A model generated the notes under the pieces. The model had not been told where the DNA came from and made no database searches. It saw only the letters and a list, made by a program, of their open reading frames with translations. From positions 1-41,219 of the forward strand of contig JAFZFQ010000032.1 of NCBI GenBank assembly GCA_017555825.1: a stretch of 41,219 bases of DNA, given 5' to 3'. Shown here in pieces: positions 18,356 through 23,960 of this stretch (position 1 is its first letter; each line of letters opens with the position of its first letter). The position numbers were made by a program, and so were the translations under genes. The stretch comes from Bacteroidaceae bacterium (lineage in GTDB: Bacteria; Bacteroidota; Bacteroidia; Bacteroidales; Barnesiellaceae_A).

Positions 18356-18396
18356 TAAAAAGCAACGAGACAGCATAAACTGTCGCGTTGCTTTTT
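18356..18396. terminator. Bidirectional terminator between the Sel1 gene and the CHAT/CHASE2 operon
   Basis: Arms AGCAACGAGACAG (18361-18373) and CTGTCGCGTTGCT (18380-18392) pair with one mismatch, with an A-run before and a T-run after. It can end rightward transcription from the Sel1 gene and leftward transcription from the operon at 18418-23960. Confidence 0.9.
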
Positions 18397-18417
18397 ATAT
18401 TATTACCAATCACCACT

Positions 18418-19272
18418 TCATTTATTGTTTCGTTGCAGAAGTTTGCGAGCATCAGCCGAAAGGGTACATTTTACCATACCATCATCTATGTTATTTTGAG
18501 GTTTTTCGCCATTTTTTAATTTGAGACTAATAAGCGACGAATCATAGTCAACAGTAGAGGCAACAAATAAGTAGACAACATCTTCCGAATCATAAAACTC
18601 TCCAGGTAGCATAAACTCCGAGGTTGACATATTAGCTATTGAAATATTACGTGGGTAGCAAACCTCTACCGATTCACTATACAAGTTGACGCAGAACATA
18701 TTTACATAGCAAGTACCAACATCTATATTTGCCACCTTAAATGAATAGGTATCATCGGCATATATTCGAGTTATAGCAGGAGACTTATCGTCTTCTTTTA
18801 TTTCGCTGCGTGCATAAATGTTGTTGATTGCCTTATATATACACGCATATACGGCATCTATTTTACCCGTATCACCCTGTCCTCTTACCGATGCTCCATA
18901 ACTTGTAAAGTCTCGCCGAGTTTTTTCTCCACCGGACGAAGCATTTTCCTTTAGTACATTACTTATTACAGCCATATCCCTCCCCTCGGCTTTCTTTATA
19001 ATATCACGCACCGTCATCTGACCAGCGTTATCGACTGTATACACCGCACGCGTTGAAGTCTTCATAATACTCACCGAGCTATTAGGCGAAAGATTTATCT
19101 TATCAATAAGTTTCACAGTATCGCGCTTTTGCAAAGTTTTCCAGTGCTTATCACCTCGATGCATAATCTGCACATCACCTTTGAGACGAACTATGACATT
19201 GTGATTTTGCGCCAGCGAAAGCAATGGGCTGACAAAAAACAATAACACCAAGAAAAGTTTATACTTAGTCAT
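18418..19272 (-). CDS. Exported FecR-like protein, last gene of the CHAT/CHASE2 operon
   Basis: A 284-residue protein with a clear signal peptide (MTKYKLFLVLLFFVSPLLSLAQ). The first part of the mature protein, with VIVRLKGDVQIMHRGDKHWK, then VKLIDKINLSPNSSVSI, then AVYTVDNAGQMTVRDII, resembles the FecR beta fold: a short V-x-G-x-V strand, a ...L...D.I..... phrase, then a strand ending in a G-x-x-x-V turn. The C-terminal half (YSFKVANIDVGTCYVNMFCVN and after) looks like a second beta domain. It is not next to a sigma factor or TonB receptor, so it is not a standard iron-sensing FecR. It follows the CHASE2 gene by 42 nt. Proposed role: envelope partner or substrate of the CHAT protease (inference). 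Confidence 0.6.
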   Translation of the reverse strand: MTKYKLFLVLLFFVSPLLSLAQNHNVIVRLKGDVQIMHRGDKHWKTLQKRDTVKLIDKINLSPNSSVSIMKTSTRAVYTVDNAGQMTVRDIIKKAEGRDMAVISNVLKENASSGGEKTRRDFTSYGASVRGQGDTGKIDAVYACIYKAINNIYARSEIKEDDKSPAITRIYADDTYSFKVANIDVGTCYVNMFCVNLYSESVEVCYPRNISIANMSTSEFMLPGEFYDSEDVVYLFVASTVDYDSSLISLKLKNGEKPQNNIDDGMVKCTLSADARKLLQRNNK

Positions 19273-19314
19273 ATATCTAAAACTCTAATAAATTACTTAT
19301 TTAAATATTTCTTT

Positions 19315-20478
19315 TCAGTTTACCGCTTTATACGTCTTGTATTTTTTCATTAAGTATTTGCCAAAATGCTCAATACCAGTACATATATCAAGTACAAAAG
19401 CAGTAGAACCTATCATAAGCAAAACAAGCGACACGTCTAGATAATAGTTATTGACATAAAGAGTGCATCCAATCTTGTAAAGCACACACATCATGAGAAC
19501 TTGCACTACTCTTATCACAAAATCAACACCATTATCTATATACTTCTCAACAACAACATGAAGCAACATAAACAGATAGCAAAGTACCACCGATAAAAGG
19601 AAATTCAACCACTCAGGGAAAGAATCGATATAATTTCCTTCGAGAATAGTATCTACACAATATGCATGTATGATAGCACCCGGTATCTTATCCTCATGAG
19701 GTACCGGAAATAAATCTTTACTATTATTAATATCACCTACTATCACAACTCGACCTTCAACCTTATCTGCAATATTGGGGTTAATAGTACCTTCTTGTTT
19801 CAAAATATCACCATAGGTTATAACCTCTATAATACGTGAAGTGAAGTTGATATATTCACTCTCATTACCTCGGTCTACAAAAACATCTGTAGTCTCCTTG
19901 TCTACCAAAGATGCCAAACGCACCGAAAAACTCGGTATTCGTTCATCTTCGATGGTATAGAATGGTCGGAATGAACGTACCGCTCCCCATGTGGTATATC
20001 GTTCCATGTTGACTACAGAAAATTTTTCTTCTTCTAACCACTCTGTAAGAAATGAATTAGTCCATTCATCCTTTACAAACTCATCATTTCCCTCATCATA
20101 AGACACAATCAATGGTAGCACCAAATTGTGGCACTCATCGAAGACCGAAAGCATATAAGAATCGTCATGTGTAGGATACTGAAAGTTGATATCTACGCCT
20201 ATTGCTCCTGGGTGCATCGCATTTAACACATCAATCATCCTTACAAGCTCTTCTCTACTGCAATTATCAGATGCCACAACCAACACCTTGTCACTACAAT
20301 AAGAGACACCTCGATTATTGGCAACCTTAGTGTATATGTCCGACAACTGAAAATCACTCTTACCATCCACTGGAGAAAACAGCGACATGATAGAAAAGCC
20401 ATTGATGGATATTGTCATGATTATCAATGACAATAAAGCCACCATCATAGGCATTATATATTTTTTCTTAATCTTCAT
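19315..20478 (-). CDS. Stand-alone CHASE2-domain membrane protein
   Basis: The ATG at 20478 is preferred; a start at 20532 would overlap the CHAT gene and adds 18 polar residues before the first membrane helix. The product (387 residues) has an N-terminal helix (IMPMMVALLSLIIMTISI). A long extracytoplasmic CHASE2 domain follows: KVLVVASDN, then HPGAIGVDINF, VVNMERYTTWGAVRSFRPFY, IPSFSVRLAS, RVVIVGDINNSKDLFPVP and PGAIIHAYCVDTILEGNYI. Three closing membrane helices (LLSVVLCYLFMLLHVV, FVIRVVQVLMMCVLY and VSLVLLMIGSTAFVL) come next, then a tail of about 25 residues. This is the CHASE2 layout, but there is no kinase, cyclase or other output domain. CHASE2 senses unknown external signals and is often found with CHAT. 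It lies 26 nt after the CHAT gene stop. Confidence 0.85.
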   Translation of the reverse strand: MKIKKKYIMPMMVALLSLIIMTISINGFSIMSLFSPVDGKSDFQLSDIYTKVANNRGVSYCSDKVLVVASDNCSREELVRMIDVLNAMHPGAIGVDINFQYPTHDDSYMLSVFDECHNLVLPLIVSYDEGNDEFVKDEWTNSFLTEWLEEEKFSVVNMERYTTWGAVRSFRPFYTIEDERIPSFSVRLASLVDKETTDVFVDRGNESEYINFTSRIIEVITYGDILKQEGTINPNIADKVEGRVVIVGDINNSKDLFPVPHEDKIPGAIIHAYCVDTILEGNYIDSFPEWLNFLLSVVLCYLFMLLHVVVEKYIDNGVDFVIRVVQVLMMCVLYKIGCTLYVNNYYLDVSLVLLMIGSTAFVLDICTGIEHFGKYLMKKYKTYKAVN

Positions 20479-20504
20479 TATAGAATCAATCTTTATCCAT
20501 TCCT

Positions 20505-23336
20505 TCAATCGAGTAAAACAAACGGAGCCCAATAGCGAGGATTATTGCCATATTTTTGTATAACATATTGTTGGGCTTGGGTCAATGCTTGATGTTTAGT
20601 GAGGCCTTGGGTAAGTCCATTATAAAACTCCGTCATAAAACATTGAGTAACAAGGTCATCAACATTCCACATACTCATCAAAATACTATTTACACCAGCC
20701 TTCTTAAAAGCTCTTTGGAGGCCAAGAACTCCATCGTCATTTATATCGCCAAGACCGGTTTGACAAGCCGACATTACGACAAGAGAAGTATTGCCGAGCT
20801 CGAGTTTTGATATTTCCGAGGCACTTAAAATACCATCATCCACATCGTCGGGTATGTTGTGATTTCCCAAAACACTTTGGTTTGCACCGGCAAATGCTAG
20901 TCCGCATTTCTTTAATGATATTCCTTCACTTATTGCCTCTTTTTCGTTTTCAGCACTTTCATCATGCTTATAAAAACCATGAGTTGCAATATGTATTATT
21001 TCTGGCGAGTTTTTGGAGTAAATCTTAAACTGCTCTTCAATACACGATGCACCACTATGAAGTTCGGTTGTATATGAATTTCTACTCAATATGTTTTCAA
21101 TTTGCTCTATCTCCTCTTGTGTACCGGGCAAATAAGACCAAAACACATCGGCACTACGTTCTTGTGTGAGACTGTAAGAGTAATACTCCATATCCTCCAC
21201 AGTTAAGTTGTAATCAATTCCACCAAAAAGTACTGCACTCTTGCTTGATGACTTTTGTGTGCTACCTTTAACAATATCTCTTGTGGATGATAATCGGCGC
21301 ATGTTATATTTTTCACTCATACGGCTTCCGTGCGAAATCATATACTCGATAGACATTGAATGTAGTACTCCATCTGGCACAAAATATATGGTTTTAATAT
21401 CGGGCGATGTCTTCTTTGCCGCATCAATAACCTTACTCCATATCAAATCACCTATACGAGCCGAATTGTAGAGTGTATTTATTTCATTATCTCTATAAAG
21501 TTTTTCTATGGAATTATCAATGTTAATTATAACACATTCAGGTGTTTTTGATTGAGAAGTCAATATCAGAGCAAGATATGCCTTCTCATTAGTATCTGTG
21601 CGAGTTATGTGAGCAAACTCTACAGCAATCTCACCCTTCTTCAATTTCTTTTGAACATCATTCCATCTAATATTGAATATATCAAAATCGCCACCCAGAT
21701 TTTTTGCCTTTGACAACAGTTCCAACTCTACATCAATATAATTGCTCTGTTCTTCTGTGCTGTTTATCCATTTATTATACAATTCTTTCAATTCCGCATC
21801 ACCGCTATCATAAATAATTTTTCTAATTCGTAATGATGTTGCCAATTGAATGGACTTCGTCATAAGAAGAGAATTGTATGCATATTTCAATATTTCGGCA
21901 TTATCTGTTTGCCACAAGAGCGTAACAGGTGCTTTTATAAATACTTTATATTTGTCCCAAATGTATCCATAATCATCTTCTCTGTTTTGCAAAAGCATTT
22001 TTTTCATTTCAGCAACAGCAAGTTCCCAACTTTTTATCAATACTGACGAGGCTTTATCATAATCTTTAAGATTAGAATAAAGCACAGACTGATTGTGTAG
22101 ATATTCTGGATCGTTACTAAGCGACACTGCCGATTGTGAAAACTCTATGGCTTTGTCAAAATCACCTTGTTCGGCATAAATATAGGATATACTATTGCAG
22201 ATATTGGCCTTAATTCGATTATCTGCATTATTATTTAACGCTGAATTTAGCAAAACAAAAGCTTCTTTTTCTTTGCCAAAAGATAACAATATATTAGCAT
22301 AATTTGTCAACGCCAATATTTCTTCATCCTCACCCAAATCATATCTATCTACCATTTCATATGCTTCTCGGGCATATTTAATAGAAGCATTTTCATAATG
22401 AATTTCCGAATAGCAATTTGATAACGGAATTAATACAAAAAATACATTTTGAGAAAGGGAATGATTTAGTGCCTTAAATTTATTGTACGACTGCAAGAAA
22501 TATTCAGTAGCCTTTTCATAACTTCCCATCTTAAAGTACGAACTACCTATACCTCGCAACACCTCGGCAATATTGTACTGCCGAGAGACAGATTCTCCTG
22601 GAACAGTTATAGCAAGACCTCGTTTGGCCCAAATGCTTTCGTTATTATCTCCCGAGAGCGAATGACCCGCCTCATAATCCGACAAAATTTCATGATAAAG
22701 TTTTAATGAGGCAAGATGATCGCCCGATTGCTCGTATATTGTTGCCAAATCACTACTAAATGCCAGCCACCTCGGCTTATCTACGCTTATTAAATCACAA
22801 AATTCGGCACATACTCTCGCAGCCTCCGACAGATTACCTACATCGTAGTAAAGCTTATATAATTCTTTATAGATTCGGTAATAATTATTATTCCACCGAC
22901 CGCCATTTTTTTTATACTGAGCGATCCCAGTGGTATATACATCTATACTCGCATCAACATTGCCCATTTGCTTATATATACGACCCAACTGCAAACACAC
23001 ATAGTCCGTCTGCCATATATCATTACTCTTGAGCAACTTACGATAGTTACTTATTGCCAATCGGGTATTACCTATCTTATCATAGCAATCGGCTGCTCCC
23101 TTTATTGCTTCGAGATATTTGCGATTATCATTTCCATATTCTTTACGGTAAAGAACTGCCGCCTGCTCATAAAGAGAGCAAGCAGACTCATAGTTCTTGT
23201 GAACTAGGAGCTGCATACCCGCTTGTTGCATTAGATTGTTTGCTTGTTTTACTTTTTCCGAACTTTGTGCATAGGATGAAAACAATGGAACAAACCCCAA
23301 TGCCAATATAATAATTGCTTTGACAAAAAACCTCAT
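20505..23336 (-). CDS. Exported TPR-CHAT protein (caspase-like cysteine protease)
   Basis: A 943-residue protein with a signal peptide (MRFFVKAIIILALGFVPLFS, cut near SYAQ). Residues about 25-470 are a long row of TPR repeats, for example YLEAIKGAADCYDKIGNTRLA and ANICNSISYIYAEQGDFDKA. Residues about 560-943 are a CHAT domain with VPDGVLHSMSIEYM, IIHIATHGFY (His786) and LVVMSACQTGLGDIN (Cys858), then GVNSILMSMWNVDD and a closing YWAPFVLL. The His-Cys pair of clan CD proteases is intact, so it should be active. TPR-CHAT proteins cut partner proteins, as in separase and the type III-E CRISPR (Craspase) peptidase; most are cytoplasmic, whereas this one should be periplasmic or surface-exposed. 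It is the second gene of a four-gene operon. Confidence 0.9.
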   Translation of the reverse strand: MRFFVKAIIILALGFVPLFSSYAQSSEKVKQANNLMQQAGMQLLVHKNYESACSLYEQAAVLYRKEYGNDNRKYLEAIKGAADCYDKIGNTRLAISNYRKLLKSNDIWQTDYVCLQLGRIYKQMGNVDASIDVYTTGIAQYKKNGGRWNNNYYRIYKELYKLYYDVGNLSEAARVCAEFCDLISVDKPRWLAFSSDLATIYEQSGDHLASLKLYHEILSDYEAGHSLSGDNNESIWAKRGLAITVPGESVSRQYNIAEVLRGIGSSYFKMGSYEKATEYFLQSYNKFKALNHSLSQNVFFVLIPLSNCYSEIHYENASIKYAREAYEMVDRYDLGEDEEILALTNYANILLSFGKEKEAFVLLNSALNNNADNRIKANICNSISYIYAEQGDFDKAIEFSQSAVSLSNDPEYLHNQSVLYSNLKDYDKASSVLIKSWELAVAEMKKMLLQNREDDYGYIWDKYKVFIKAPVTLLWQTDNAEILKYAYNSLLMTKSIQLATSLRIRKIIYDSGDAELKELYNKWINSTEEQSNYIDVELELLSKAKNLGGDFDIFNIRWNDVQKKLKKGEIAVEFAHITRTDTNEKAYLALILTSQSKTPECVIINIDNSIEKLYRDNEINTLYNSARIGDLIWSKVIDAAKKTSPDIKTIYFVPDGVLHSMSIEYMISHGSRMSEKYNMRRLSSTRDIVKGSTQKSSSKSAVLFGGIDYNLTVEDMEYYSYSLTQERSADVFWSYLPGTQEEIEQIENILSRNSYTTELHSGASCIEEQFKIYSKNSPEIIHIATHGFYKHDESAENEKEAISEGISLKKCGLAFAGANQSVLGNHNIPDDVDDGILSASEISKLELGNTSLVVMSACQTGLGDINDDGVLGLQRAFKKAGVNSILMSMWNVDDLVTQCFMTEFYNGLTQGLTKHQALTQAQQYVIQKYGNNPRYWAPFVLLD

Positions 23337-23369
23337 GTATTAAGTGTAAATAGGCAACACACAATCTTT

Positions 23370-23960
23370 TTAATAGTATTCATAAGTAACTAGTCGCTCA
23401 TGTTCTACTCCATCTTGTGTAATTGTAACGATTCTTGTATAGTTACCATACTCATCTGGGTCAAATGTTTTAACGGTTGTTTTACTATACACCTTACCAC
23501 CAACATACACTACTGAGTTATATCCTTCCGATGTTTTGTTTTCTGTAGTCATATACCATACTATCGATTCACCATCGGGAGTTAAATTGAATAATATTGA
23601 ATCTTCAAAATCCCAATAGTAACACACCTCTGATGTCAAACACATAAAAGATACTTCGTCACAAGCATAACCCATCAAAGATTCGCTTATAAATTCATCA
23701 CTTGAGTTCTTATAAAATTTCTGAGTAATTAACTCATCACTCCAGCTAAAGATAGTATATTCATCCTTTACACTGTTTAAACTCTTTTCTAGTTTTCCAT
23801 TGGGTGTAAAATAATCAACGGTTACCCCCATATCACTTGTAGATAGAACACTTTTAATAGGGCCATTGAAATTACCGACTCTGGTAGTATAGGTAAAAAC
23901 TTGAGCTGAAACTGAAATGGTGGCAAAAAACGCAACCATAAGAAGCATAAACTTTTTCAT
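23370..23960 (-). CDS. Small exported protein with a YD-like C-terminus, first gene of the CHAT/CHASE2 operon
   Basis: A 196-residue protein with a signal peptide (MKKFMLLMVAFFATISVSAQ). The mature part is rich in Tyr, Thr and short beta strands. VTVDYFTPNGKLEK and FDPDEYGNYTRIVTITQDG near the end look like units from YD/MORN-like secreted proteins of Bacteroidota (Y-D-E-Y-G-N-W/Y-T-x). There is no membrane segment after the signal peptide and no lipobox. It lies 33 nt upstream of the TPR-CHAT gene and next to the likely promoter, so it is the first product of the operon. A role as substrate, sensor or effector of the CHAT protease is a guess from position. Confidence 0.6.
   Translation of the reverse strand: MKKFMLLMVAFFATISVSAQVFTYTTRVGNFNGPIKSVLSTSDMGVTVDYFTPNGKLEKSLNSVKDEYTIFSWSDELITQKFYKNSSDEFISESLMGYACDEVSFMCLTSEVCYYWDFEDSILFNLTPDGESIVWYMTTENKTSEGYNSVVYVGGKVYSKTTVKTFDPDEYGNYTRIVTITQDGVEHERLVTYEYY

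Follow-up and report, generated by a model that had tools for sequence, protein, structure and literature searches.

CHASE2 receptors are usually described by their cytoplasmic outputs, and we know of no accepted general ligand for them. That no general CHASE2 ligand had been accepted was also the position in 2016, according to the part of a report on Burkholderia cited here (PMC5192318). In the portions of the reports cited here and in the final section, a CHASE2 adenylate cyclase of Campylobacterota is clustered with a FecR-domain envelope protein, a TPR protein and a cAMP phosphodiesterase (PMC9239204), the Burkholderia BiofilmReg operon combines a CHASE2 histidine kinase and a response regulator with a FecR-domain neighbor (PMC5192318), and in magnetotactic bacteria a CHASE2 cyclase gene has mtxA as its neighbor (PMC4439547). 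The CHASE2 cyclases of Sinorhizobium respond to a plant protein via an outer-membrane barrel, NsrA (PMC13001267), and the cyanobacterium Trichodesmium has a metacaspase-CHASE2 fusion whose protease is predicted to be cytoplasmic (PMC3501461, PMC2853523). The pairing of CHASE2 with FecR in combination with cyclases or kinases is thus already published. For the output-less, protease-linked form, a group consisting of an output-less CHASE2 protein, a FecR-like protein and an exported protease, we found no description in the parts of the open-licence literature that our searches covered.

The window (the whole stretch of 41,219 nucleotides from a Bacteroidaceae bacterium that was analyzed) contains a CHASE2 gene of this output-less form, which lies between the genes for a FecR-like protein and a TPR-CHAT protein in a four-gene cassette (Table 1).

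A short CHASE2 protein in a four-gene cassette

The CHASE2 open reading frame runs on the minus strand from an ATG at 20478 to a stop at 19315, the coordinates given in the preliminary description. Its product matches the Pfam CHASE2 family (PF05226) with 76.3 bits, relative to a curated cut-off of 26.3, and by hydropathy and AlphaFold2 (AF2) modeling consists of an N-terminal helix, the CHASE2 domain, three C-terminal helices and a short basic tail. In the AF2 model (mean pLDDT 86) the helices span residues 2-27, 289-313, 318-342, and 350-380, and the basic ends of the chain suggest that the CHASE2 domain is on the extracytoplasmic side of the membrane. No second Pfam family was found at E<=1, and hence no C-terminal output domain of the kinase or cyclase type, which bears out the earlier proposal that the protein is a CHASE2 receptor without an output domain. 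The tail beyond the third C-terminal helix is indeed short, although not of the approximately 25 residues first estimated: 18 residues follow the last hydropathy segment and seven the last AF2 helix. Searches for solved relatives by sequence returned two weak matches only (best E 0.1) and a Foldseek search with the model returned nothing at E<=0.001; the absence of solved relatives does not imply a new fold. Carriage of the protein by phages or plasmids was set aside, with no match in phages and a single match in plasmids at 20.8% identity.

Table 1. Features of the four-gene cassette, with positions in the window.
Feature	Start	End	Strand	Basis
AT-rich four-gene insertion, ~5.8 kb	18403	24198		Empty site in two congeners and base composition
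Exported-looking FecR-like protein, 284 aa	18418	19272	minus	Hydrophobic N-terminus
Beta domain of the FecR-like protein, residues about 22-93	18994	19209		AF2 block, pLDDT 94-98 over most
CHASE2 protein without an output domain, 387 aa	19315	20478	minus	Pfam, hydropathy, AF2 model
CHASE2 domain, residues 73-302, predicted periplasmic	19573	20262		Pfam PF05226
TPR-CHAT protein, 943 aa	20505	23336	minus	CHAT PF12770 and TPR matches, hydrophobic N-terminus
Codon of putative dyad residue Cys858	20763	20765		Motif
Codon of putative dyad residue His786	20979	20981		Motif
196-aa protein, signal-peptide-like start (by eye)	23370	23960	minus	No Pfam match

The adjoining TPR-CHAT protein matches CHAT (PF12770) with 177.9 bits, relative to a cut-off of 24, in addition to several TPR matches, and has a candidate His/Cys dyad. 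It is a predicted caspase-fold protease, and its hydrophobic, export-like N-terminus agrees with the earlier suggestion that the protease next door lies on the outer side of the same membrane. On the other side of the CHASE2 gene, the FecR-like protein has a signal-peptide-like start and a small beta domain, followed by a remainder modeled by AF2 with low confidence. Among solved structures the beta domain has one strong match, 5ix9 (entry title "cell surface anchoring domain"), at Z 9.2 with an rmsd of 2.4 over 71 aligned residues; the runner-up has a Z of 4.7. Assignment of this protein to the Pfam FecR family (PF04773) was not supported: the window protein has no Pfam match at E<=1, PF04773 does not appear for 26 members of its family (25 of the 27 families matched at E<=0.5 being shown) or for 16 members (all 23 families at E<=1, some members being shared with the 26), and the PF04773 profile has no match in the window genome. 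"FecR-like" is accordingly used here as a label for resemblance and not for family membership. Other members have an additional second beta-like region and a TPR-like C-terminal end, and the best solved matches of the family by sequence are TPR repeats. Kinship with MtxA is a lead only, as the weak matches to Pfam MtxA_C were limited to 2 of 16 relatives (best E 0.0049) and the one match with a shown score falls below the Pfam cut-off.

The four genes are transcribed in the order 196-aa protein, TPR-CHAT, CHASE2, and FecR-like, with gaps of 33, 26, and 42 bp, and their span (18418-23960) has a GC content of 0.364 compared to 0.472 in the remaining window. The cassette is flanked by a Sel1 gene and an HTH gene. 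In two congeners (loci L220 and L221, genomes G007 and G003) the matches to these flanking genes are only ~150 and 106 bp apart, and the alignment to G007 resumes at window positions 18402 and 24199. The ~5.8 kb have consequently been gained in the window genome or lost in the congeners, and we favor gain because of the odd base composition. None of the four genes had a match in the fetched stretches of eight relatives, four of which have the flanking genes arranged differently and two of which (G008 and G004) do not cover both flanks. A scan for promoters and terminators yielded 30 and 5 matches, respectively, relative to 29.1 and 4.2 in shuffled sequences, and a hairpin at 18369-18384 is within the stretch shared with L220. 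The 196-aa protein has no relative in a pool of 141 CHASE2 loci and was set aside as a general component; from its position, it may be part of the system in the window genome.

Neighbors of CHASE2 genes in Bacteroidia

To place the cassette in context we searched genomes sampled at the level of order (393 genomes, 18 CHASE2-positive), class (395, 41 positive), and phylum (395, 137 positive). Fifty-seven genomes of the order and class samples were positive, which together with the window gave 61 loci in 29 families; two class-level genomes whose CHASE2 match positions were not listed (G628 and G593) and one weak extra match in G642 were left out, and at 6 of the 61 loci the contig ends within 1.5 kb of the CHASE2 gene on one side. 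A second set comprised the best 80 of 294 named loci from the CHASE2 alignment (seven of which repeat loci of the first set), with titles that include Bacteroidales, Chitinophagales, Saprospiraceae, Cytophagales, Flavobacteriales, Ignavibacteria, and Kapaibacterium. Most CHASE2 proteins of the survey have 364-461 residues, the exceptions being three of 534-537 residues in one family, a fusion of 1307 residues and three that are shorter owing to start choice. Short CHASE2 proteins are usual in Bacteroidia, as evidenced by a form of up to 461 residues in 28 of the 29 families. In the phylum-wide sample the CHASE2 frames among the matches listed, which are known by length alone, all have 530-896 residues. 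The three proteins of 534-537 residues (L132, L133, and L134, family f207) have no adjacent FecR-like gene, and their genomes have 11-19 CHAT matches each.

The near-constant partner of the short CHASE2 protein is the FecR-like protein and not CHAT. The FecR-like family was found by sequence iteration, with a profile built solely from genes near CHASE2, and a member is encoded within 4 kb of CHASE2 at 49 of the 61 loci by profile, or at 51 when two members aligned by eye from their position (L137 and L139) are included; ten loci have none. Among the best 80 of 294 named relatives a FecR-like gene lies within 1.4 kb of CHASE2 in 75. When whole genomes were searched, FecR-like matches were strong in 54 of the 57 that bear CHASE2 and in none of 23 CHASE2-free ones, one of which (G015) had a weak partial match. 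The comparison scored no more than 29 first-look candidates in any genome, and both genome size and kinship confound the co-occurrence. The profile drew on 25 of the 57 genomes; of the remaining 32, 29 had a strong match, several of these being congeners of genomes used for the profile. One genome (G916) has no FecR-like match genome-wide, yet has a FecR-like protein of 148 residues beside CHASE2 according to the neighborhood profile. In seven genomes (G233, G807, G818, G826, G852, G881, and G983) FecR-like and CHASE2 genes are on different contigs, some of which are short. Two FecR-like genes stand in tandem behind one CHASE2 gene at L125 (10118-11976) and at L127.

The preliminary description had proposed that output must go through a partner, had pointed to the neighboring CHAT protease, and had named short CHASE2 proteins commonly standing without a CHAT neighbor as the observation that would count against it. 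This is what the survey found, as no CHAT gene lies within 4 kb at 55 of the 61 loci (contig ends being near at 6 of the 61), and CHAT as the general partner is rejected. That there is a partner is very likely, and the broader idea of one outside the membrane survives in changed form, because the FecR-like protein is nearly constant and a second caspase-fold family, Peptidase_C14, is encoded within 4 kb at 18 of the 61 loci. An in-house C14 profile may have drifted, as it marked Sel1- and WD40-bearing proteins; Pfam scans confirm C14 at L022, L034, L038, L039, L123, and L219, with PF00656 matches at other loci.

Together, CHAT (6 loci) and C14 genes occur within 4 kb of CHASE2 at 23 of the 61 loci, in 16 of the 29 families, which is ~17 times the chance expectation of ~1.3 loci (calculated from 148 C14 and 171 CHAT matches in 183 Mb). 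Within the same distance in the best 80 of 294 named loci, C14 was found in 22, CHAT in 10, and either in 29. For the 60 C14 or CHAT matches within 4 kb (duplicates removed), both dyad motifs were found in 55 and a crude test for export was passed by 48; of the 12 that failed, three run off a contig and most of the rest start with a hydrophobic stretch by eye. On a genome-wide scale C14 was found in 45 of 57 CHASE2-bearing and 32 of 80 CHASE2-free genomes, CHAT in 48 (45 above the Pfam cut-off) and 33 (32 above), and either in 56 and 46, respectively (Fisher P 6e-9, uncorrected for kinship or genome size). Some Bacteroidia have expansions of CHAT to 8 to 25 matches per genome (G818, G852, G881, G821, G958, G573, G785, and G033). 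Conversely, 38 of the 61 loci have neither a CHAT nor a C14 gene within 4 kb. The CHASE2/FecR-like pair can stand without a linked protease, because protease-less families (f210, f128, and some of f177 and f218) show housekeeping-like neighbors by eye.

The window genome (92% complete) has two CHASE2 genes, together with one CHAT and one C14 match, each beside one of them. At the second locus, L022, a likewise output-less CHASE2 protein of 402 residues precedes a protein of 804 residues that combines Sel1 repeats with Peptidase_C14 (dyad motifs GHG at 642 and DAC at 691), and a FecR-like protein comes next.

All three pairwise links between CHASE2, the FecR-like protein and the protease also occur as single reading frames. 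L038 encodes a protein of 1307 residues in which CHASE2 is joined to a Sel1-like region and C14, in L174 CHASE2 is followed by the FecR-like protein, and in L219 (Ignavibacteria) a frame located directly after the CHASE2 gene has a hydrophobic start, a FecR-like region and C14 with both dyad motifs, in addition to C-terminal matches to outer-membrane barrels that are below the Pfam cut-off. A simple missed stop is unlikely in L038 and L174 because there is no Met at the joint; both are metagenome assemblies, in which alternative start codons are possible. An additional hydrophobic stretch at the joint is suggestive of an arrangement that would keep the added part outside. The hydropathy of these fusions is mixed, however: in L174 the extra helix is strong (2.52) and the canonical fourth helix weak (1.07, where 101 of 141 short CHASE2 frames have a fourth-helix hydropathy of at least 1.6), and in L038 the extra helix itself scores low (1.09 over 19 residues, 2.09 over 12). 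Two CHASE2 units appear to be joined in one chain at L149 (124-2607; by eye and hydropathy), and a single FecR-like gene is preceded by a tandem pair of CHASE2 genes at five loci of Ignavibacteria/Kapaibacterium type (L177, L196, L206, L214, and L216) and at L205. The tandem genes and the double chain suggest that CHASE2 may work as a dimer.

The distribution of linked proteases was examined on CHASE2 trees of 140 rows, 117 of which were labeled (seven repeat loci and one row of <250 aa were omitted, and 23 contig-end rows carried no label). Between having and lacking a protease within 4 kb there are 19 changes with FastTree and 17 with a quick IQ-TREE run, compared with a mean of 37 and a minimum of 30 in 200 label shuffles on the FastTree tree. 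Protease linkage is thus inherited within clades, yet it was gained or lost on many occasions. The window row belongs to a clade of ten same-order loci (SH-aLRT 93), five of them from its own genus, in which nine loci have a protease, CHAT and C14 being mixed; long branches meet in this clade and the exact place of the window row is unsure.

Possible routes of output

We propose that the CHASE2 and FecR-like proteins form one envelope sensor unit that is coupled, at this and many other loci, to an exported caspase-fold protease, a reading to which we assign a probability of about one half. The observed gene anatomy, near-constant pairing, recurrent protease linkage, pairwise fusions and presence in one cassette would then reflect a physical complex in which CHASE2, in the inner membrane and facing the periplasm, and the periplasmic FecR-like protein together sense a signal from the envelope or the outside. 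The sensor unit would hold, recruit or release the protease, CHAT in the window locus and Peptidase_C14 elsewhere, on the same side of the membrane, and the output would be proteolysis of a substrate in the periplasm or at the outer membrane, for which a cytoplasmic domain would not be needed. Control of a protease in the envelope is the simplest output because the linked protease appears to be on that same side. More tentatively, and with somewhat less confidence than in the coupling itself, we suggest that the system is one-sided, with exported CHAT or C14 proteases, acquired on repeated occasions, in place of the cytoplasmic output; the signal, the switch and the effector would then all be periplasmic, and the FecR-like protein would couple them.

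The 38 loci without a linked protease, and the ten without a FecR-like gene within 4 kb, count against this model. The loci without a linked protease also speak for its main rival, which is that the CHASE2/FecR-like pair is self-sufficient and signals in trans to an unlinked cytoplasmic cyclase or kinase, the neighboring proteases being passengers or occasional clients; the CHASE2 tail could, for instance, contact a cytoplasmic enzyme encoded elsewhere. That CHASE2 fusions to adenylate cyclase or histidine kinase in other phyla adjoin FecR-type genes, in the cited parts of the reports (PMC9239204, PMC5192318), is consistent with signaling in trans, as are the longer CHASE2 frames among the matches listed for the phylum. 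A protease linkage so far above chance, recurring at many points of the tree, counts against this rival, and we consider signaling in trans unlikely, if less so than the remaining alternatives. Adjacency and fusion would also fit an enzyme and its substrate, and it is conceivable that CHASE2 or the FecR-like protein is cleaved by the protease instead of regulating it, with cleavage of a membrane protein serving as the signal, as in regulated proteolysis; a parallel is Csx30, which, in the part of the report cited, is cleaved by the TPR-CHAT protein of Craspase and then activates downstream antiviral pathways (PMC11106740). However, CHASE2 has no cytoplasmic cargo here that cleavage could release, and the many loci that hold the pair without a linked protease also make a substrate role improbable.

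A role in defense or programmed death, in which the caspase-fold effector would damage the envelope upon infection, appears more doubtful still. Caspase-like peptidases are effectors or activators in bacterial conflict systems, according to the cited part of a report (PMC8195603), and both the patchy distribution of the module and the insertion of the cassette would be in keeping with such a device. Against it, the protease looks exported, the CHASE2 protein lacks matches in phages and has the one in plasmids, and the PADLOC models had no match to the CHASE2 or FecR-like proteins and only weak ones to the CHAT-TPR protein (TPR 21.5, BovA 19.4 bits). Least credible of all is that the CHASE2 protein has decayed here after losing its output domain: the CHASE2 frames listed from elsewhere in the phylum are longer, but the short form recurs in 28 of the 29 sampled families, its modeled fold is intact and its partner is nearly constant.

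If the coupling of the sensor unit to a protease is correct, a large output-less, protease-tied group would show that CHASE2 can act without signaling across the membrane, and bacterial caspase-fold proteases would gain a regulated role in the envelope. It would also provide a concrete complex of two or three proteins for reconstitution, and natural fusions for structural study.

Comparison with described systems

The Campylobacterota cluster is the same as the window locus in that a CHASE2 gene occurs with genes for a FecR-domain envelope protein and a TPR protein, and it is thought to be mobile between species; it differs in that CHASE2 is fused to an adenylate cyclase, and a caspase-fold protease is not mentioned in the part of the report cited (PMC9239204). 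BiofilmReg likewise has a CHASE2 membrane sensor with one N-terminal and three further membrane helices and adjoins the gene of a FecR-domain protein with a predicted signal peptide, whereas its CHASE2 domain belongs to a histidine kinase that is paired with a response regulator, and the partner combines LysM and FecR domains (PMC5192318, in the part cited). For mtxA, the cited text describes a signal-peptide protein beside a CHASE2 protein, as here, and discusses TPR and Ig-like domains, with CHASE2 linked to a cyclase in contrast to the window protein (PMC4439547).

The two described systems with a caspase-fold protease resemble the window locus in other respects. The Trichodesmium fusion ties Peptidase_C14 to CHASE2, and does so, according to the parts of the reports cited, in one polypeptide with an N-terminal metacaspase predicted to be cytoplasmic (PMC3501461, PMC2853523), whereas the proteases beside the short CHASE2 genes have export-like N-termini and mostly have a gene of their own. 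The TPR-CHAT protein of Craspase (Csx29) shares TPR repeats and a CHAT protease with the window protein and, in the account available, has the RNA-guided Cas7-11 (gRAMP) as its partner. The window TPR-CHAT protein differs in its signal-peptide-like start and its membrane or envelope neighbors, none of the cassette genes resembling Cas7-11/gRAMP.
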